DNA from: Glycomyces terrestris | GTDB lineage: Bacteria; Actinomycetota; Actinomycetes; Mycobacteriales; Micromonosporaceae | Direction: 5' to 3' | Assembly (NCBI RefSeq): GCF_003933745.1 | Contig: NZ_RSEB01000003.1 | Span: 434,001 to 498,000, forward strand | Length of the DNA: 64,000 bases | Part shown: one piece after another, positions 48,959-60,333 of the stretch | How positions within the stretch are numbered: the first letter of the stretch is position 1 | Layout: each line of letters begins with the position of its first letter | Program-made: the position numbers and the translations under genes | Notes under the pieces: model-generated | The model's database searches: none | The model's input: only the letters and a program-made list of their open reading frames with translations | What the model was told of the DNA's origin: nothing

Positions 48959-50242
48959 CTAGGCGTAAGGATCGTCGTCTTCGTCGACGACGCCCCACAG
49001 GTTCCCGTCCTCGGCCAGGTCGGCCTCGTCCGTCGACCGGGCGGCGCCGGTCGCCGCGGGCGCGGTCCACGGGTCGGCGATGATCGCGCTCGTGGCCGCG
49101 GCGGTGCCGACCGCTGCCGGCACCGCGCTGGGTGCGGCCGCGTCGCCGCTCGGTCGGTCCTCCTCGGCCGCGTCCTCGCTCAAGGTCGGCGGCTGGAGGG
49201 ACGGCTCGTCCGCGGCCCGGGGCGTCTCGGTGCCGGTGGGCTGGTCGAGGGGCGGGGGTTCGAGGTCCATGTACGCGGGGTCGGCGGCGGCCGGGTAGTC
49301 CTTGTCGCTGCGGACGGTGCGGAGCGAGCGGAGCTCGGCTTCGGTGTCGGCGTTGCGGCGGACGAGGTCGTCGTCGACGGCGGTGTGGCGGGCCGCGTAG
49401 GCGCCCCAGCTCTGCTCGACGAGGGTGGCGTAGTGCTCGGTGGCGTCGGCGACGGCGAGGTCCTTGGCCTCCTCGACGGTGAGGCCCTGTGCGGGGTCGA
49501 GGCCGTCGCGTTCGACGGCGTCGGGCCTGGCGTACCGGTCGATGTGGTGGAGGATGCGCTCGTCGATGTAGTCGATGATCTCGGTGGCGAGCGCGGGCTC
49601 GGCGCCGGCGAGGGCGAGGACGTGCTCGGCGTCCTGGCAGGTGTAGCGGATGCAGTCGCCGTGCCACCAGGCGGGCCGGATGTGGACGGACACCCAGCTG
49701 TGCCAGTCGCCGTCGATCCAGAACTGCGCCGCGGGGTAGGGGATCTCGCCGGCGCCGCCGCCCTGGATCAGGTGGAGGGCGTCCTCGGCGGCCTGGAGGC
49801 TCGCGGCGGTGGCGTCGACGTCGTCGATGAGGTCTTCGACGAGGCCGCGGGTCTGGTCGCAGGCGGCTTCGAAGGCGTCGAAGCCGGCGCCGGACCAGCC
49901 TTCGGCGAGGTCGGCGAGGTGGGAGCGGATGCGTTCGGGCCAGTCGGCGAGGCGGCCGGAGACCTCGTCGGTCCAGGCGGTGCGCAGGTGCTGGAGCGAG
50001 TGGGCGTCGGCGTCGTCGGGCCGGACGGCGGCGAGCGCGGCGCGGAAGTCGGCCCCGGTCGGGTACGACGTCGCCGTCGCCTTCGGGCGGTGCGACTGCC
50101 CCTCGACCGGGACGGCGGCCATGACCTGCTGCCAGTGCCGTTCGGCGGGGTGGGCGGTCGCGTTGCCGCAGTCGGGGTGGGAGCAGCCGGGCCGGCCGGC
50201 CCCCGCGGCGTCGAGTGCTGAGGTGGACTCGTTGTCGCTCAT
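48959..50242 (-). CDS. WxG-motif protein with DDPYA tail (module copy 2)
   Basis: A 427-residue paralogue of the 45612-47291 protein. Matching elements in the same order: the Cys pair GCSHPDCGN (about 19-27), H-W-Q-Q-V-M-A-A-V-P, W-S-G-A-G-F-D-A-F (about 115-123), GEIPYPAAQFWIDGD, HIRPAWWHGDC, then DYIDERILHHIDRY, and the acidic end NLWGVVDEDDDPYA. It lacks the Gly-rich region and has a shorter Pro/Ala linker. Conservation of both ends while the linker differs suggests the termini are functional, perhaps for export or docking. Function unknown. Confidence 0.68.
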   Translation of the reverse strand: MSDNESTSALDAAGAGRPGCSHPDCGNATAHPAERHWQQVMAAVPVEGQSHRPKATATSYPTGADFRAALAAVRPDDADAHSLQHLRTAWTDEVSGRLADWPERIRSHLADLAEGWSGAGFDAFEAACDQTRGLVEDLIDDVDATAASLQAAEDALHLIQGGGAGEIPYPAAQFWIDGDWHSWVSVHIRPAWWHGDCIRYTCQDAEHVLALAGAEPALATEIIDYIDERILHHIDRYARPDAVERDGLDPAQGLTVEEAKDLAVADATEHYATLVEQSWGAYAARHTAVDDDLVRRNADTEAELRSLRTVRSDKDYPAAADPAYMDLEPPPLDQPTGTETPRAADEPSLQPPTLSEDAAEEDRPSGDAAAPSAVPAAVGTAAATSAIIADPWTAPAATGAARSTDEADLAEDGNLWGVVDEDDDPYA

Positions 50243-50328
50243 CGGTCTTCACCTCGCGAGGGGAACGGGTGGCGTGACCTCTTCACCGTACCAACTGCGA
50301 GGGCTTCACGACAGCACCGCGAAGGCGC

Positions 50329-50772
50329 CTACCGGGGGCGGCGCCGGCGGAAGACCAGGGCGGCGAGCAGGACGGGGAGCACGAGGAAGACGAACACGAC
50401 GATCACCGGGGCGAGGTGCTCGCCCGTGCCGGTCCCGGCCGTCCACGCGGTCGGCCGGCCCCAGCCGGCGTACAGGGCGGCCGGTTCGACGAGGAACGCG
50501 TCGAGGCGCTCGCCTTCGGTGCAGGGGCCGTCGACCTCGATGTCGACCTCGGTCGCGGGGCCGCCGCCGTCGGGGGTGAAGGCGCCGGTGCAGACCTCGT
50601 CGCCGCCGCCGGAGACGTGCGCCCGCTCGACCACGGCGGTCCCGTGCGTTCCGGAGCCGTCGGCCGCGGCCCGGAACGCCGTATATCTGACGGCGGTGAT
50701 CGCGAGGGCGAGGAGCGGGACGGCGGCGAAGGCGGCGAGGACGAGCGCGCGGCGCCGGGGCGTCACCGCCAT
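50329..50772 (-). CDS. Two-span membrane protein (147 aa)
   Basis: An N-terminal span (ALVLAAFAAVPLLALAITAV) is followed by an extracytoplasmic beta-rich part with two Cys (GGDEVCTGAFTP, DGPCTEGERLDAF) that could pair. A C-terminal span (LAPVIVVFVFLVLPVLLAAL) and RRRRPR tail follow. It overlaps the upstream WxG protein gene by 10 bp, so it belongs to the 50.3-52.8 kb operon. Function unknown. Confidence 0.63.
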   Translation of the reverse strand: MAVTPRRRALVLAAFAAVPLLALAITAVRYTAFRAAADGSGTHGTAVVERAHVSGGGDEVCTGAFTPDGGGPATEVDIEVDGPCTEGERLDAFLVEPAALYAGWGRPTAWTAGTGTGEHLAPVIVVFVFLVLPVLLAALVFRRRRPR

Positions 50773-51710
50773 TCGACCGACTCGGGGTTCGTGAACCGGT
50801 CGGGGGCGTGGTCTTCCCACAGGTTGAGGAGCGAGTCGGGGATGCCGAGGGCGGGGCCGCCGCCGTCGAAGAGCGCGCCGGTCTCGCCGTCGCCCTTGTA
50901 CACCGGGAAGATCGAGGAGACGCCCTGGAAGACGTGCATGGCGTTGGCGACGCTGGCGTGGCGGCCGCCGGGGGTCATGGTGGCGACGTTGACGCCGTAC
51001 ACGAGGAGGCCTTCGAGCATGTTGGCGAGTCCGGCGCCGGCGATGTCGAGCGGGTCGACGGGGTTGCCCTGGACCTGCTGGAACCCGACGGTGAACGCGG
51101 TGAGGCCGCCGGTGAGGGTCGCGCAGCCGGTGGAGACGGCGATGAGGTAGGACTCGATGCTCTTCATGGACGCGACGAGGCTGGTGGCGACGGTCTGGGC
51201 GCTGGCCATGATCGCGGGCGCGCCGGGGGCGGTGAGGACGCCGGCGAGGGCGGCGAGGTAGGCGGCGAGGAACGCGTCCATGACGATCGTGCAGGCGGTG
51301 AGGAACAGCCAGTAGACGGTGAGCATGACCGAGAAGGCGAGGAGCTGGGCGCCGATGAGGAAGGCGGTGACGGCGAGCTGCTGGAGCTGGGCCTTGACGT
51401 TCCCGGCGGCCTCGCGGAAGGCGTCGGCGTCGTCGCCCTTCCAGTTCCCGTCGTTGACGGTGTCGACCTCGGCTTGGAGGGCGTCGGCGGCCTCGATGTT
51501 CTTCTCGGCGAGGGAGACCCAGGCGCCGGCGGCCTTGAGGATGTCGCCGGGGTTGCACTGGTTGAGGTAGATGCCGGTGGCCATGGCCTGGACGGCGAGG
51601 CCGAAGACGACGGCGGGCGGCGCGATGGCGACGGCGCAGGACTTGATGACGCCGTTGTAGTACGGCGACATCTCCTCCCCCGCGTCGTAGAGGCTCTTCC
51701 CGGTGGACAT
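50763..51710 (-). CDS. WxG-motif membrane-associated T7SS protein (315 aa)
   Basis: A 315-residue protein. W-K-G-D-D-A-D-A-F (about residues 90-98) gives the WxG turn with the D-A-F follow-up. Several long hydrophobic helices (VAIAPPAVVFGLAVQAMATG; LLAFSVMLTVYWLFLTACTI; LAALAGVLTAPGAPAIM) make it likely to enter membranes. The C-terminus (ALGIPDSLLNLWEDHAPDRF) is soluble. The small EspC-like gene lies 13 bp upstream and a YbaB-like gene before that, repeating the order YbaB - small helical - WxG seen at 8.5-9.9 kb. Confidence 0.65.
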   Translation of the reverse strand: MSTGKSLYDAGEEMSPYYNGVIKSCAVAIAPPAVVFGLAVQAMATGIYLNQCNPGDILKAAGAWVSLAEKNIEAADALQAEVDTVNDGNWKGDDADAFREAAGNVKAQLQQLAVTAFLIGAQLLAFSVMLTVYWLFLTACTIVMDAFLAAYLAALAGVLTAPGAPAIMASAQTVATSLVASMKSIESYLIAVSTGCATLTGGLTAFTVGFQQVQGNPVDPLDIAGAGLANMLEGLLVYGVNVATMTPGGRHASVANAMHVFQGVSSIFPVYKGDGETGALFDGGGPALGIPDSLLNLWEDHAPDRFTNPESVEWR

Positions 51711-54320: not shown

Positions 54321-54710
54321 ATGCGCTTGCGCACCGACGACGACATCTACCGTGCCCGCCTGCTGTACCTCGGCCCTCCCGGATACACGCTCCCCGTCCA
54401 CCTCCCGTACGGCCAGTACGGGGCGTTCGCCGCGCTCCTGGCCCTGTTCATGTTCGTGCGCTGGGCCTTCACCGGCGACGTCGACCTCTTCCCCGCCATC
54501 GAGATCTCCCTCGCCCTCGTCGCGACCTCGCTGATCTTCCGCTACGTCGACGCCGACCGGCCCGCGACCACCGTCATCCGCACGCTGCTCACCGACTGGA
54601 AGCACACGCGGGGCAACGGCCACGAGGTCCGGATCCCGGCGTTCACGACCCGTTCGATCCGCCTGCGGCCCACGCTCGTGGAGCCCGTCCGAACCGAGGA
54701 GCGCCTATGA
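54321..54710 (+). CDS. PrgI/TcpE-like conjugation membrane protein
   Basis: A 129-residue protein with a membrane hairpin (FAALLALFMFVRWAF; FPAIEISLALVATSLIF) between soluble ends. The small two-span protein immediately before a VirB4 gene is the usual place of PrgI/TcpE-type (VirB3-like) proteins in Gram-positive T4SS. The stop overlaps the VirB4 gene start (ATGA). Sequence similarity alone would not be enough; order is the main evidence. Confidence 0.6.
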   Translation: MRLRTDDDIYRARLLYLGPPGYTLPVHLPYGQYGAFAALLALFMFVRWAFTGDVDLFPAIEISLALVATSLIFRYVDADRPATTVIRTLLTDWKHTRGNGHEVRIPAFTTRSIRLRPTLVEPVRTEERL

Positions 54711-57700
54711 GCGGCGAGGACCGCCGTCAGCCAGTCGCCAAGTTCTCCGCCCCCCGCCCCCCCGCGCCCGTGCGGGACCGGGAGCGGTCGTCCGGCGACC
54801 TCGGCGACGACGCCACCGCCCTCGCGGACGCGGTGTTCCGCGCGGAGCCCGCGAGGGGGCCCGGCCGGGCGGAGCCGGCGGGCGGTCCCGTGCGGACGGA
54901 GTCCGCGCCGGCCCGGAGCGGGCCGTCGCAGCCGCTCCCGCAGGGCGAGCCGACCCGGCCGAGCCAGCCGTCCCCAGTGGAGTCACTGCGACACGCGTCG
55001 CCACCTGCGTCGATGACCCCTCCCTCCACCGCTCGTCCACAGGGTTATCCCCAGAGTTATCCACAGAATCAGCCGAGTTATCCACAGGGGTATCCACAGC
55101 GTTACCCACAGGCTCCCACCAGCGGGAATCCACAGGGTCATCCACAGCGCAACGGAAGTTATCCACAGCAGGGGCCGAGTTATCCACAGGCTCCTGACCA
55201 GGGTCGCGGGAGTGTTTCCACAGGTCGCCGTCAGGCGGCGCAAACCAGTACACAACGGCCTCCCGGGCAGGACCTCGTGCCGGTGCGGCAGTCGCGCGCC
55301 GAGGCGGTGCCGGTGCCGTCCGGCGACGCCAAGCCGGTCCGCGTCAAGCCGATCGGGGCGCAGAAGGAGCGCCAGCCGCTCCGGGAACTGAGCCTCACCG
55401 AGATCGCCGGGCACGTGACGTTCACGCCCGCGTCGGTCACCGCCTGGTACAAGCTGCCGGGCGTCCGCTGGTCCTTCCGGCCCGACCTCGAGCGCGAGGC
55501 GCTCATCATCGCGGTCGCCGAGCAGTACGCCGGCCTCGCGGGCATGCGCGTCCACCTGCGCCGCACCACCCGGCCGTTCCCGGCCGACCAGTGGGCTCGC
55601 ACCGTCGACCGCCACACCGCGCGGCCGCTGCGCACCGTCCCGGGCGGCACCAGCTGGGCCGACCACCTCGTGGCCGCGCAGCGCCACCTCCAGCAGCTCT
55701 CCCACGCCGAAGGGGAGACGTTCCTCGGCATCACGTTCTCGCGCCGCGGCGCGTTCGACCAGCTCGGCGAGAAGGTCGGCCGCATGTTCGGCCGCGGCAC
55801 CAAGCTCTCCGAGCGCGAGAAGATCGAGAAGCGCAGCCTCCAGTTCGACGAGGTCCTCGGCTCCTTCGGCGTGCGCGCCCGCCGCGCCACCACCGAGGAG
55901 CTCGAGTGGCTCGTCTACCGGTCGGTGGCCCTCGGCATGGAGCCGCCGCGCCTGCTCTCGGGCTCGAACCAGGACTGGGAGCCCGGCGACGTCCTCGCCC
56001 TGACCGAGTCGATCGAGCGCTATCGCAGCCCGTACGGGTCCACCGTCAAGCTCGTCAACCGGCTCACCGGCGAGGAGAAGCACACCGCGGTCCTCACCGT
56101 GGGGCGCATGGAGGAGCTCGAGATCCCGCAGCGCCACGAGCCGTGGCTGCACTTCCACGAGCGCTGCCCGTGGCCGGTCGAGCTGTCGAGCCGCATCGAC
56201 ATCCTCGGCGCCGGCGAGGCCTTCCGCGACCTCGACCACCGGCTCCGCCTCATCCGCTCCCAGCAGCGCGACTACGACGAGCACGCGATGGACGCCCCGC
56301 CGGAGCTCCAGCGCCTCGCCGAGCGCGCCCTCGGCGTCGGCGACGAGATGACCACCGGCCTGCCGATCGACGCGGCCCGCGCCCACGGCTGGCACCGCCT
56401 CGCCGTCACCGCGGACACGAAGGAGGAGTGCCTGGAGCGCGCCCGCACGCTCATGCAGATGTACCAGCGGGACATGCGGATCAGCCTCCAGCACCCAAAG
56501 AACCAGGACTGGCTCGCCCGCGAGTTCATCCCCGGCGAACCGGTCGCCCAAACCGGGTACGTGCGCCGCATGCCCGTCAAGCTCATGGCCGCGGCCCTGC
56601 CGCAGGCCGCCTCCGTCGTCGGCGACCGCCGCGGCGACCTCATCGGCCGCACCGCCGGCACCTCTCGCAGCCCGGTCTTCCTCGACCTGCACTTCGCCAC
56701 CGAGGTCCGCGAGAAGTCGGGCCTGTCGGTGTTCGTCGCCGAGCCCGGCGGCGGCAAGTCGACCCTGATGGGCGCCATCGGCTACCTCGCCGCCCGGCGC
56801 GGCGTCCAGGTCACGCTCCTCGACCCGTCGGGGCCGCTCGCGAAGCTCTGCGAGATGCCCGAGCTCAAGCCGTTCTCGCGCGTGCTCAACCTGACCGGCT
56901 CGGAGTACGGGACGCTCGCGCCGTACGCGCTCATCCCGTCCCCGCGCCGCGAGCACTACGCCGACACGCCTGACGGGCAGCGCGAGTACGACATCGCCGT
57001 CTCCAACGCCCGCTCCGAGCGGCGCATGCTCGTCCAGGACATCTGCGCGATGCTCCTGCCGCCGCAGGTCCAGCGCGAGGCGAGCACGGCCCGCCTGCTG
57101 CGCCACGCCGCCCGACACGTCCCGGCCGAGGAGGACTCCGCGCTGGAGGACCTCGTCGAGTCCCTCCAGGAAGCCGAGGACCACGTCACCGGCGACGGCG
57201 CCGAGCTCGCGGCGCTCCTGCTCGACACCGCGGAGATGCCGCTCGCGAAGCTGTTCTTCGGCAACCCCGACAAGGGGGTCCTGGAGGACGACACGGCGCT
57301 CACGGTGATCACCATGTCCGGGCTGCGCCTGCCTGACCTCGGCATCGAGCGCGAGTACTGGTCCGCGGAGGAGGCGCTCGCGCTGCCGATGCTCCACACC
57401 GCGCACCGGCTCGCCGTCCGCCGCGCCTATGGCGGCGACATGCACCGCCGCAAGCTCGTCGGCCTCGACGAGGCCCACTTCATGGAGGGCTGGAAGTCCG
57501 GGCGGTCGTTCCTGGTGCGGCTGGCCCGCGACTCGCGCAAGTGGAACCTGGCGGCGCTGGTGGCCTCGCAGAACCCGAAGGACATCCTCGGGCTCGACGT
57601 CCAGAACCTGGTCTCGACCGTGTTCGTGGGCCGCATCGCGGAGGACGCGCAGATCGCCGAGGAGGCGCTGAAGCTGCTGCGCGTGCCCACCGGCGTCGGC

Positions 57701-57877
57701 TACGAGTCCGTGCTCGCGTCCCTGTCCGAAGTGGACGCGTCCGAGACGCGGAAGCTCCCCTACCGCGAGTTCGTCATGCGCGACGTCGACGGCCGCGTCC
57801 AGCGCATCCGCGCCGACTTCAGCTGGGTCCGCGGCCTGCTCGACCACCTGAACACCACGCCCGGGGAGGACCAGTGA
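54707..57877 (+). CDS. VirB4/TraC-family T4SS ATPase with YPQ-repeat N-terminus
   Basis: A 1,056-residue protein. Residues 1-190 are disordered and rich in Pro, Gln, Tyr and Ser, with about ten repeats of YPQ or close variants (residues 108-162). Residues 215-600 form the VirB4 N-terminal domain, and 640-1,050 the motor: Walker A AEPGGGKST (about 678), Walker B KLVGLDEAHF (about 915), and LAALVASQNPKDILGLDVQN (a motif found after Walker B in VirB4). It energises substrate transfer and pilus or channel assembly at the membrane. The YPQ repeats are encoded by TAT-CCA-CAG, giving a run of DnaA-box-like sequences, while the rest of the gene prefers TAC and CCG/CCC. It overlaps both neighbours by 4 bp. 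Confidence 0.85.
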   Translation: MSGEDRRQPVAKFSAPRPPAPVRDRERSSGDLGDDATALADAVFRAEPARGPGRAEPAGGPVRTESAPARSGPSQPLPQGEPTRPSQPSPVESLRHASPPASMTPPSTARPQGYPQSYPQNQPSYPQGYPQRYPQAPTSGNPQGHPQRNGSYPQQGPSYPQAPDQGRGSVSTGRRQAAQTSTQRPPGQDLVPVRQSRAEAVPVPSGDAKPVRVKPIGAQKERQPLRELSLTEIAGHVTFTPASVTAWYKLPGVRWSFRPDLEREALIIAVAEQYAGLAGMRVHLRRTTRPFPADQWARTVDRHTARPLRTVPGGTSWADHLVAAQRHLQQLSHAEGETFLGITFSRRGAFDQLGEKVGRMFGRGTKLSEREKIEKRSLQFDEVLGSFGVRARRATTEELEWLVYRSVALGMEPPRLLSGSNQDWEPGDVLALTESIERYRSPYGSTVKLVNRLTGEEKHTAVLTVGRMEELEIPQRHEPWLHFHERCPWPVELSSRIDILGAGEAFRDLDHRLRLIRSQQRDYDEHAMDAPPELQRLAERALGVGDEMTTGLPIDAARAHGWHRLAVTADTKEECLERARTLMQMYQRDMRISLQHPKNQDWLAREFIPGEPVAQTGYVRRMPVKLMAAALPQAASVVGDRRGDLIGRTAGTSRSPVFLDLHFATEVREKSGLSVFVAEPGGGKSTLMGAIGYLAARRGVQVTLLDPSGPLAKLCEMPELKPFSRVLNLTGSEYGTLAPYALIPSPRREHYADTPDGQREYDIAVSNARSERRMLVQDICAMLLPPQVQREASTARLLRHAARHVPAEEDSALEDLVESLQEAEDHVTGDGAELAALLLDTAEMPLAKLFFGNPDKGVLEDDTALTVITMSGLRLPDLGIEREYWSAEEALALPMLHTAHRLAVRRAYGGDMHRRKLVGLDEAHFMEGWKSGRSFLVRLARDSRKWNLAALVASQNPKDILGLDVQNLVSTVFVGRIAEDAQIAEEALKLLRVPTGVGYESVLASLSEVDASETRKLPYREFVMRDVDGRVQRIRADFSWVRGLLDHLNTTPGEDQ
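55033..55188 (+). repeat. Ten DnaA-box-like direct repeats inside virB4
   Basis: Four perfect TTATCCACA boxes start at 55057, 55078, 55159 and 55180. Near matches start at 55033 (TCGTCCACA), 55045 (TTATCCCCA), 55090 (GTATCCACA), 55102 (TTACCCACA), 55126 (GAATCCACA) and 55138 (TCATCCACA). All face the same way, with spacings of 12, 12, 21, 12, 12, 24, 12, 21 and 21 bp. They encode the YPQ repeats. Whether they bind DnaA is unknown. Confidence 0.75.
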
Positions 57878-59793
57878 CCGACCCCTCCGCCCACGACCTC
57901 GCCCCTCCCGCCCCCCGCCACCTAGCCCGCCTGGGCGGCCGCGCCGCCCGGATGCTCCTGGTCCTGGCCGCGGCCCTGGGCGCGCTGGTCTTGACGCCGA
58001 GCGCGGCCGGGGCACAGGGAGACGAGGGCTGCTCGGACTACGAGTGGCACACGGCCTGGTCGCAATGCGTCGAGGAACTGCCCGAGGCGCAGGAGCTCCA
58101 GTGCGAGGCGGCACCCCAACCCGCCTCGCCCGACTCCGGCATGGCCGGCTGGTTCGCCGAACCGAGCCAGCTCGACCAGAGCGAGGGCATCGGCACCTAC
58201 AGCAGGTACGGCTACGCGGGCTACCAGCTGCCGATGTACGGCTCCCAGCAGATGAGCGTCGGCGGCCAGTGCGTGGACTCCGTCTCGATCCCGAACGGCG
58301 CCGACACCGCGAACGCCTTGGCGAACATGGAGTTCAACCTGTCGGTCGCCACGGTCGGGGCCGCGAACTCGATGCGGCAGGCCGCGTGGGAGCCGGACAC
58401 CATGTGGGGCTGGTCCAACCGCTTCATGGAGCAGGGCACCGAGGTGCTCTACCGCCAGATCTTCACGGTCTTCGGCGCGGTCACGGTCGGCCTCATCGGC
58501 CTGTACCTGCTGTGGCGCTCGCGCCAGGCCGACATGAACAACGCCGTCACCACCGTGGCGTGGGCGGTGCTCATCCTCGTGCTCGTCACGGCGGTGGTGC
58601 GCTGGCCGGTCAAGGCCGCCGAGTACACCGACCAGGCGCTGACGATCGGCATGGACTTGAGCACGGTGCTCATCAGCGACGACACCGCCGACGGCTGCGT
58701 GCGGATCGACGGCCTGACGCAGCAGGAGTACGAGGACCTCAAGGAGGACAACGAGGCCAACCCGGACTTCTGCATCGACACCCGCTCCGCCGCGGTCACC
58801 GCCTCCGACACTGTCTCCGGGCAGGTCCTGTACCAGAACTGGCTGCGCACCATGCTCGGCCAGAGTGAGGAGGTCACGTTCCAGGAGCGGAACGGCGAGG
58901 TCGTCGAGGACGGCGAGGGCAACCCGGTCGTCACCGAGTCGAACACGGCCTACAAGTACGGGCCGGCGCTCTTCGCCGCGCAGGCGATGTCCTGGCAGGA
59001 GAACGAGGAGGCCGAGGACTCCGCGACGGTCCGCAACCGGCTCATCGAGGAGAAGCAGGAGCTCTGGCAGAGCCTGGTCGCGCAGATCCAGACCGAGGAC
59101 CCGGAGGCGTACGCGAACATCAGCGGCCAGCGCGCCTGGGAGCGCACCGGCACCGGCCTGCTCGCGCTGCTGACGGCGATCTTCTTCTCGCTGTTCGACC
59201 TCACCGCGTCGATCCTCATCATCCTGGGCTTCATGATCGTGCGGTTCGCGATCGTGGCGCTGCCGATCATCGGCACCATCGCCCTGCTCCGCCCGGCGGG
59301 CGGCCCGTTCAAGCGCCTGGTGAACACCGTCCTGGGCGCGATCATCAACGTCGCGATCTTCTCGCTCGCGGCGGTCATCTACATCTGGGCGTCGAGCCGC
59401 ATCCTCCAGACGGCCATGCCCGTGTGGCTGCAGGTGGTCATGATCGGACTCCTGGGCGTCGCCGCCTGGCTGCTCCTCAGACCCGGCAGGCGGATCGCGG
59501 GCCTGGTCGGCGGCAGCGGCCCGGCGGACGCGTTCCTCGGCCGGCGCGGCGGCGACTCCGAGCGCAGCGCCGAGCGCGAACGCGAGCAGGAGCGGGCCCG
59601 GATGCGCCGCGACGACGCCCGCCCCGAGGAGTCCTCCGACACCGTGCGCCCCCTGCGCGCTGGGAAGGGCGACTCGCTGCCGGAGCAGCAGACGACACCG
59701 GACAAGCCCGTCGGCTCCACGAGCGGCGCGGGCTCCAGCACGTCCACCGGTTCCGGTGGTGGAGAGGTCTACCGGCCTTCGAGAAGGGAATGA
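57874..59793 (+). CDS. VirB6/TrbL-like T4SS membrane protein
   Basis: A 639-residue protein starting at a GTG that overlaps the VirB4 stop. A signal peptide (MLLVLAAALGALVLTPSAAG) is cleaved near AGAQGDEGC. An extracytoplasmic Cys-containing part runs to about 180. Spans follow near 200-217 and 229-247, then a large loop (250-420) and four more spans (425-540; FDLTASILIILGFMIV, VVMIGLLGVAAWLLL). The C-terminus is a charged cytoplasmic tail rich in Arg, Glu and Ser/Gly. This layout fits the polytopic VirB6/TrbL channel component following VirB4 in actinobacterial T4SS-like operons. Confidence 0.7.
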   Translation: MTDPSAHDLAPPAPRHLARLGGRAARMLLVLAAALGALVLTPSAAGAQGDEGCSDYEWHTAWSQCVEELPEAQELQCEAAPQPASPDSGMAGWFAEPSQLDQSEGIGTYSRYGYAGYQLPMYGSQQMSVGGQCVDSVSIPNGADTANALANMEFNLSVATVGAANSMRQAAWEPDTMWGWSNRFMEQGTEVLYRQIFTVFGAVTVGLIGLYLLWRSRQADMNNAVTTVAWAVLILVLVTAVVRWPVKAAEYTDQALTIGMDLSTVLISDDTADGCVRIDGLTQQEYEDLKEDNEANPDFCIDTRSAAVTASDTVSGQVLYQNWLRTMLGQSEEVTFQERNGEVVEDGEGNPVVTESNTAYKYGPALFAAQAMSWQENEEAEDSATVRNRLIEEKQELWQSLVAQIQTEDPEAYANISGQRAWERTGTGLLALLTAIFFSLFDLTASILIILGFMIVRFAIVALPIIGTIALLRPAGGPFKRLVNTVLGAIINVAIFSLAAVIYIWASSRILQTAMPVWLQVVMIGLLGVAAWLLLRPGRRIAGLVGGSGPADAFLGRRGGDSERSAEREREQERARMRRDDARPEESSDTVRPLRAGKGDSLPEQQTTPDKPVGSTSGAGSSTSTGSGGGEVYRPSRRE

Positions 59794-59796
59794 CGG

Positions 59797-60333
59797 ATGA
59801 ACCGCGCCCTCCGGATCATCTTCTCCCGCTACGGGATCGTCGTCATCATCCTCGTGCTGGTGCTGGGCGTGATCGCGCTCGCGAACCGGCGGCAGGAGAC
59901 CCCGCTCGACGGCACGAACGGCGTCGACGGCACGGACGGCGCCGCGTCCTCTGAGGCGTTCACCGAGGACGACGGGTTCGCGACCGAGGACTGCACCGGC
60001 GACGACTGCTACGCCGAGGAGGAGCTGCCGCAGGAGGCGGTCGACCGGGCGGTCGAGTTCACCGCGGCCTGGCTCAACCCGGGCGGCTCCGGGCAGGCGG
60101 CCTGGTTCGATTCGATCGAGCCGTACATGACCGCCGAGACGGCCGAGGCGATGACCGGCGTCGACCCCGAGACGGTGCCGGCCGAGGAGATCAGCGGCGA
60201 GCCCGCCGCCGACGGGTCAAAGGTGAGCATCCCGCTCGACACGGGGACGCTGACGCTGACGATGCTCGAGGGCGCCAACAACTGGACCGAGAACGGCTGG
60301 CTCGTTTCGGCGATCGACTGGGAGCAGTCATGA
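59797..60333 (+). CDS. VirB8/TcpC-like bitopic protein
   Basis: A 178-residue protein. One N-terminal span (YGIVVIILVLVLGVIALA, about 12-29) is followed by an acidic linker with a Cys pair (EDCTGDDCYAEE). The C-terminal domain (EAVDRAVEFTAAWLNPGGSG, LTLTMLEGANNWTENGWLVS) looks like the NTF2-like fold of VirB8/TcpC proteins outside the membrane. It starts 3 bp after the VirB6-like gene and overlaps the next gene by 4 bp. Confidence 0.62.
   Translation: MNRALRIIFSRYGIVVIILVLVLGVIALANRRQETPLDGTNGVDGTDGAASSEAFTEDDGFATEDCTGDDCYAEEELPQEAVDRAVEFTAAWLNPGGSGQAAWFDSIEPYMTAETAEAMTGVDPETVPAEEISGEPAADGSKVSIPLDTGTLTLTMLEGANNWTENGWLVSAIDWEQS

Follow-up and report, generated by a model that had tools for sequence, protein, structure and literature searches.

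The window, a 64,000-nucleotide stretch of the Glycomyces terrestris genome, carries a cluster of ten DnaA-box-like sites (positions 55033 to 55188, forward strand) that is read mostly as Tyr-Pro-Gln (YPQ) repeats and is conserved in orthologues. The cluster lies in the DNA for the low-complexity N-terminus of a VirB4-like conjugation or secretion ATPase, and it looks selected as DNA rather than as protein, a view that comparison of related genes strongly supports. We consider it probable, at about two chances in three, that the cluster is an oriC-proximal site for the titration or regulation of DnaA, of the datA or DnaA-box-cluster kind, lodged within DNA for a low-complexity protein tail. 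We infer that DnaA is the protein that binds it and that binding affects the timing of initiation.

Four of the ten sites match TTATCCACA exactly (55057 to 55065, 55078 to 55086, 55159 to 55167 and 55180 to 55188), and the first two of these show no variation in their Tyr, Pro and Gln codons across 19 Glycomyces genes. Four sites carry one mismatch, namely TTATCCCCA (55045 to 55053), GTATCCACA (55090 to 55098), TTACCCACA (55102 to 55110) and TCATCCACA (55138 to 55146), the last of which is perfect in most orthologues read. Two carry two mismatches, TCGTCCACA (55033 to 55041) and GAATCCACA (55126 to 55134). All ten are on the forward strand and share a single frame of the open reading frame (ORF) at 54707-57877, with consecutive spacings of 12, 12, 21, 12, 12, 24, 12, 21 and 21. 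Our rescan therefore bears out the first-pass annotation, which had described four perfect and six near sites in one orientation, at 12/21/24 spacing over about 155 bp, and its remark that the near matches mostly have one mismatch is fair. An eleventh forward-strand site, GTTTCCACA (55214 to 55222), has two mismatches, falls in another frame and is a possible edge site.

Chance as the origin of the cluster is ruled out by shuffling of the window and by random placement of sites in the genome. With at most one mismatch allowed, the window contains nine sites, eight of them inside 144 bp of the cluster, whereas shuffled versions of the 64 kb contain 1.0 on average and reached nine in none of 100 shuffles. 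The whole genome (5.24 Mb) holds 31 perfect copies of TTATCCACA compared with two for a reversed-motif control; four of the 31 sit inside a 132-bp part of the cluster, an arrangement that random placement produced in none of 200000 trials. The locus is thus a short stretch outside oriC that holds several boxes of high similarity.

In the frame used by the gene, TTATCCACA is divided as T-TAT-CCA-CAG and gives Tyr-Pro-Gln, and in reverse it gives Val-Asp-Asn (VDN). Five of the seven YPQ units in the window gene are written TAT-CCA-CAG, whereas outside these units the gene uses TAT twice and TAC 15 times, and only seven of its 80 Pro codons are CCA. The codon contrast to which the first-pass annotation had drawn attention accordingly holds. 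That annotation had further proposed that the DNA sequence itself may be under selection, and this claim is now strongly supported by conservation, recoding, codon columns and reversed sites.

Within Glycomyces, 19 genes (L010-L028, the window gene counted) keep the cluster in register, with four to six perfect sites and six to eight when one mismatch is allowed. The cluster is present also in G020, among the 22 genomes of the genus. G017 has VirB4 as a C-terminal fragment only, and G012, a 100% complete Glycomyces genome, had no match for VirB4 and just one pair of closely spaced boxes, so the element is either dispensable or was lost there. Beyond the genus the cluster occurs in three further genera (G034, G033 and G025), in G369 and G370 and, in weaker form, in G372 (three exact sites and three of TTCTCCACA); in all six of these genomes a single open frame contains both it and the VirB4 core. 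The genera that keep the sites have VirB4 cores 77-84% identical to that of the window. In G371 the cluster sits on a separate contig (L284), apart from VirB4, to which it is probably linked, and locus L302 has no exact box.

When the codons of 22 box-bearing VirB4 genes were redrawn from each gene's own usage (200 trials per gene), no trial gave more than one box, compared with the four to six observed. Codon columns with a conserved residue tell the same story: 13 of 16 are invariant within boxes versus 255 of 766 elsewhere (p 0.00014), and for Pro alone the figures are four of five versus seven of 58 (p 0.0025), both by a test that ignores the tree. Within boxes Tyr is TAT in all four columns, Pro is invariant CCA in four of five and the Ser preceding the box is AGT in both of its columns, while Ser columns outside boxes are invariant in six of 38. 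Outside boxes, too, most Tyr and Gln columns do not vary; it is Pro and Ser that carry the synonymous signal, and for these two residues the alignment of orthologues indicates that synonymous sites in boxes are more conserved than those in the rest of the gene. Genes that retain YPQ with TAC and CCG codons and no boxes were looked for and are absent from those read. In G033, furthermore, two perfect boxes are reversed and read VDN instead of YPQ in the ORF that also encodes the VirB4 core, an arrangement that is not explicable by a need for the YPQ peptide. Taken as sequence comparison, these observations suggest that a need for DNA sites shaped the proteins.

When 354 genomes of the family were searched for triplets of exact boxes separated by 3-33 bases, 59 had the pattern and none had the reversed control pattern. 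The remaining 295 genomes have no match to this three-box pattern, the window genome (G000) being among them because its boxes are spaced otherwise. Some of the clusters read lie not in VirB4 but in the gene for DacB, a PBP4-type D-Ala-D-Ala carboxypeptidase, where they again encode YPQ in an N-terminal tail. Exact boxes and the DacB core share one open frame at all 14 box-bearing loci (G030, G163, G165, G166 and ten g16 genomes), a count that leaves aside an N-terminal dacB locus in G144. A truncated dacB copy in G164 has no box. Recoding of the 14 dacB genes gave at most one box, compared with two to four observed. Around the dacB-like genes of G346, G024, G162, G171, G027, G092, G029, G372, G000, G010, G033 and G025 there is no box at one mismatch or fewer; G031 and G034 each show a single site with one mismatch, and in G369 two sites lie past the gene. 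The dacB-like matches of the Glycomyces group lie elsewhere in the genome and may represent a gene other than the dacB of the second clade, where dacB and VirB4 are 22-47 kb apart (G036, G163, G030 and G165).

In a tree of VirB4 cores from 49 genomes, the 26 rows with a VirB4 cluster (G371 counted in) form one clade with support of 95/90, and the five with a DacB cluster form another with support of 100/99. Some of the 18 ungrouped rows adjoin both clades, G028 as sister to the VirB4-cluster clade and twelve rows as sister to the DacB-cluster clade, and the VirB4 tails of 12 of the 18 were read and have no cluster. On this phylogeny, two gains in two genes would be the simplest reading. In-frame YPQ box clusters occur also in two other open frames, one of 282 aa at G162:C1:284897-285016 (L254/L295), 283 kb from dnaA, and one of 240 aa at G025:C1:2724582-2724626 (L211), 292 kb from dnaA; these are perhaps additional coding-embedded clusters.

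The existence of two host genes bears on the main rival explanation, in which DnaA or another reader of TTATCCACA controls transcription of the host gene or operon and so ties expression of VirB4 or DacB to replication. Transcriptional control would allow the boxes to lie toward the gene start, as they do in both VirB4 and DacB, and DnaA-box arrays are found also upstream of dnaB and, in several genera, at the start of a ThiF/TOMM-like gene. However, VirB4 and dacB are not related, and the site switches between genes instead of following a single regulon; this change of host speaks against the explanation, as does the first perfect box of the window, which is 350 bp inside the VirB4 reading frame. 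We regard such control as unlikely, and the more specific proposal that the boxes control conjugation is disfavoured because the cluster of the other clade resides in dacB, a gene for a cell-wall enzyme.

The position of the clusters was measured relative to dnaA in genomes that carry both on one contig. The VirB4 cluster is about 234 kb from dnaA in the window genome and lies at 231 kb in G018, 243 kb in G008, 215 kb in G010, 248 kb in G033, 259 kb in G025, 186 kb in G034 and 208 kb in G369, which places it within 186-259 kb in eight of nine genomes. The exception is G372, at 502 kb, and this farthest cluster is also the most degraded. DacB clusters lie within 202-250 kb of dnaA in all seven genomes (G030, 250 kb; G163, 202 kb; G146, about 238 kb; G141, about 233 kb; G147, about 213 kb; G149, about 216 kb; G145, about 227 kb). 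A position near oriC is therefore conserved for both hosts. Nevertheless, VirB4 genes that have no cluster are found 243-893 kb from dnaA (G027 nearest, G334 farthest; most at 243-497 kb), so the position of the cluster is in part inherited synteny.

Just 3′ of dnaA in the window genome, where oriC is expected, are 13 sites at one mismatch or fewer, of which only one is perfect. The identity of dnaA was confirmed, and the box-rich stretch is followed by an ORF that by eye resembles dnaN. As the box family fills this stretch, the motif is that of the host's oriC, although the oriC boxes depart further from TTATCCACA than those of the VirB4 cluster do. This outcome answers the suggestion of the first-pass annotation to scan the genome for an oriC with the same box. 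Exact boxes are also concentrated on the contig that carries dnaA: it holds 21 of the 31 in the window genome and makes up 17% of that genome (p 6e-10), and the enrichment persists when the VirB4 cluster and three boxes near dnaA are removed (p 6e-6). With seven boxes, the VirB4 cluster of G033 exceeds every other cluster outside oriC; that of G025, with five, equals the largest exact-box group at oriC. Among sites outside oriC and VirB4, 10 of 29 in G025 lie within 400 kb of dnaA (p 0.005), whereas the five of 13 in G033 do not amount to a significant enrichment (p 0.15).

The use of the same motif at oriC also counts against the idea that the cluster serves a protein other than DnaA, such as a nucleoid or segregation factor with the same motif. 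Although similarly spaced pairs of the motif are scattered over several genomes, which speaks for it, we judge this explanation improbable.

Expansion of a coding repeat through slippage in the DNA for a low-complexity tail, in which TAT-CCA-CAG was duplicated with it and the DNA has no role, would account for the short tandem-like repeats that make up the cluster and for the YPQ-rich stretches seen in other ORFs of the family. This proposal, also raised in the first-pass annotation, is very improbable and was rejected. Synonymous sites of Pro and Ser are conserved within the boxes but the spacers vary, and the boxes persist across genera whose VirB4 cores have diverged to the extent given above; together with the recoding result, the conserved register, the tree, the two reversed sites of G033 and the separate cluster in another gene of a second clade, these data had already largely refuted it.

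The VirB4-like gene (54707 to 57877, forward strand) encodes 1056 aa, and its product matches Pfam AAA_10 (E 2e-22) and the NCBIfam TcpF ATPase (E 1.5e-22, yet far under that model's cut-off). On its 5′ side a small conserved gene (54321 to 54710, forward strand) adjoins VirB4 in 13 of 13 other genomes compared and serves as a marker of a stable chromosomal locus. On the 3′ side are two genes of the same strand (57808-59793 and 59797-60333, spanning 57808 to 60333) whose order is the same in relatives; the first has a weak match, under its cut-off, to a CD3337/EF1877 mobilome membrane protein. Comparison of the flanks in 13 other genomes of the family showed VirB4 and its neighbours in the same order, with G032 having no match for the fourth gene, and the VirB4 core is present in 35 of 37 same-family genomes (window genome counted). 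As this order does not vary among the genera compared, the locus is not a recent insertion, and an integrated conjugative element, understood as a sporadic and recently inserted locus, was rejected for the same reasons. Upstream of the VirB4 operon, on the minus strand at 48959-51710 of the window, are genes whose products weakly match WXG100/PPE-like proteins. A replication origin, whether a secondary chromosomal one or that of an excised element as first proposed, would share the feature of clustered DnaA boxes, but is the least credible reading and for an excised element is rejected, given the stable gene order across genera, the box-dense oriC candidate adjoining dnaA and the finding of no AT-rich unwinding element beside the cluster, where the lowest 50-bp GC is 48% compared with 36% beside oriC.

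Of the four roles suggested in the first-pass annotation, a datA-like DnaA site therefore fits best, as a putative assignment, and the other three are unlikely or disfavoured. Reviews that describe restraint of untimely initiation, together with the accumulation of boxes in E. coli, are the grounds on which we take the cluster to be a DnaA titration or regulation site. In the proposed mechanism, the cluster would regulate initiation of replication by holding (titrating) or processing DnaA. With about 234 kb between it and dnaA, the cluster would be replicated early after initiation, and its duplicated copies could then draw DnaA off oriC and discourage re-initiation. Both the YPQ and the reversed VDN readings are apparently tolerated in the low-complexity tail, and the requirement for DNA sites may thereby have shaped the peptide. 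The other clade would have acquired an analogous cluster in the dacB tail, in the same sector of the chromosome. We lean, by a little, towards a broader proposal in which selection for DnaA sites some 200-250 kb from oriC writes boxes into whatever low-complexity tail is available, with no non-coding home, and has done so independently in VirB4 (Glycomyces, Stackebrandtia and kin) and in dacB (another clade of the same GTDB family), such that the protein repeats exist for the DNA and not for the protein.

The datA locus of E. coli reduces the amount of active initiator, and the Glycomyces cluster is like it in being a box cluster outside oriC. It differs in being inside a reading frame, while datA is non-coding as described in passages of PMC12371093; datA also works with IHF, according to a passage of PMC5742627. 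Closer to Glycomyces in lineage is the cluster of S. coelicolor, likewise an actinobacterium with boxes clustered near oriC (Smulczyk-Krawczyszyn et al., 2006, 10.1128/JB.00528-06), which is summarized in parts of PMC4585315 and PMC5742627 as repressing untimely initiation. The same effect is ascribed there to the oriC-proximal clusters of B. subtilis (Okumura et al., 2012, 10.1093/nar/gkr716), which are called datA-like. The S. coelicolor likeness is one of description and not of a shared locus, and that to B. subtilis extends to proximity to oriC, as worded in those passages, but not to loci or coding status. Streptomyces moreover favours TTGTCCACA as its DnaA box, going by Table 1 of PMC4285127, whereas the Glycomyces cluster uses TTATCCACA. 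DnaA boxes also accumulate near oriC in E. coli, as would suit titration according to a passage of PMC12371093, and boxes are similarly enriched around the origin here; the E. coli accumulation, as presented in that passage, is a broad trend in density, whereas the Glycomyces cluster is dense, conserved and inside a reading frame.

What appears to differ from known DnaA-box clusters is the embedding in reading frames, built twice into different proteins. Among the matches listed, titles and the beginnings of abstracts describe no DnaA cluster inside coding sequence, a scope to which the primary papers on the B. subtilis and S. coelicolor clusters are external. If the cluster is a real counterpart of datA, elements that time replication can hide inside genes, where scans of intergenic regions only would miss them, and can dictate amino acid sequence in low-complexity tails. 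The two hosts at similar distances from oriC, with presence and absence in relatives, would also constitute a natural experiment on the old question of whether titration of DnaA by extra boxes sets the timing of initiation.

Several other box arrays were encountered in these genomes. Directly upstream of dnaB, the gene for the replicative helicase, the window genome has six TTGTCCACA or TTATCCACA sites at 11-22 bp spacing and one outlying site (G000:C9:832654-832786; about 4654-4786 of L225), and control of dnaB by DnaA through this array is possible. In several genera of the family, the ThiF/TOMM-like gene has a conserved three-box cluster (spacing 32-33 and 21) at its 5′ end (L236, L238-L247, L249-L253, L268, L272, L280, L289 and others). 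This cluster lies 0.78-1.11 Mb from dnaA in 10 of 11 genomes measured and 1.65 Mb away in G334, and it is a second candidate DnaA control site. Glycomyces genomes also contain scattered pairs of exact boxes, the two members about 45-47 bp apart (for example L006, L008, L126, L127, L133-L135, L137, L140 and L227), several of which share a middle that recurs (ACCTGC/ACCAG) and have similar tails; they may be a repeat element or a regulator site. A second motif, ACCAGC or ACCTGC, common to the dispersed pairs and the spacer of the cluster was considered, but in the loci collected no more than 15 of 425 distinct boxes are followed by it. Finally, G028 and G025 carry many pairs of exact boxes with 18 bp spacing and variable middles, scattered over the chromosome.
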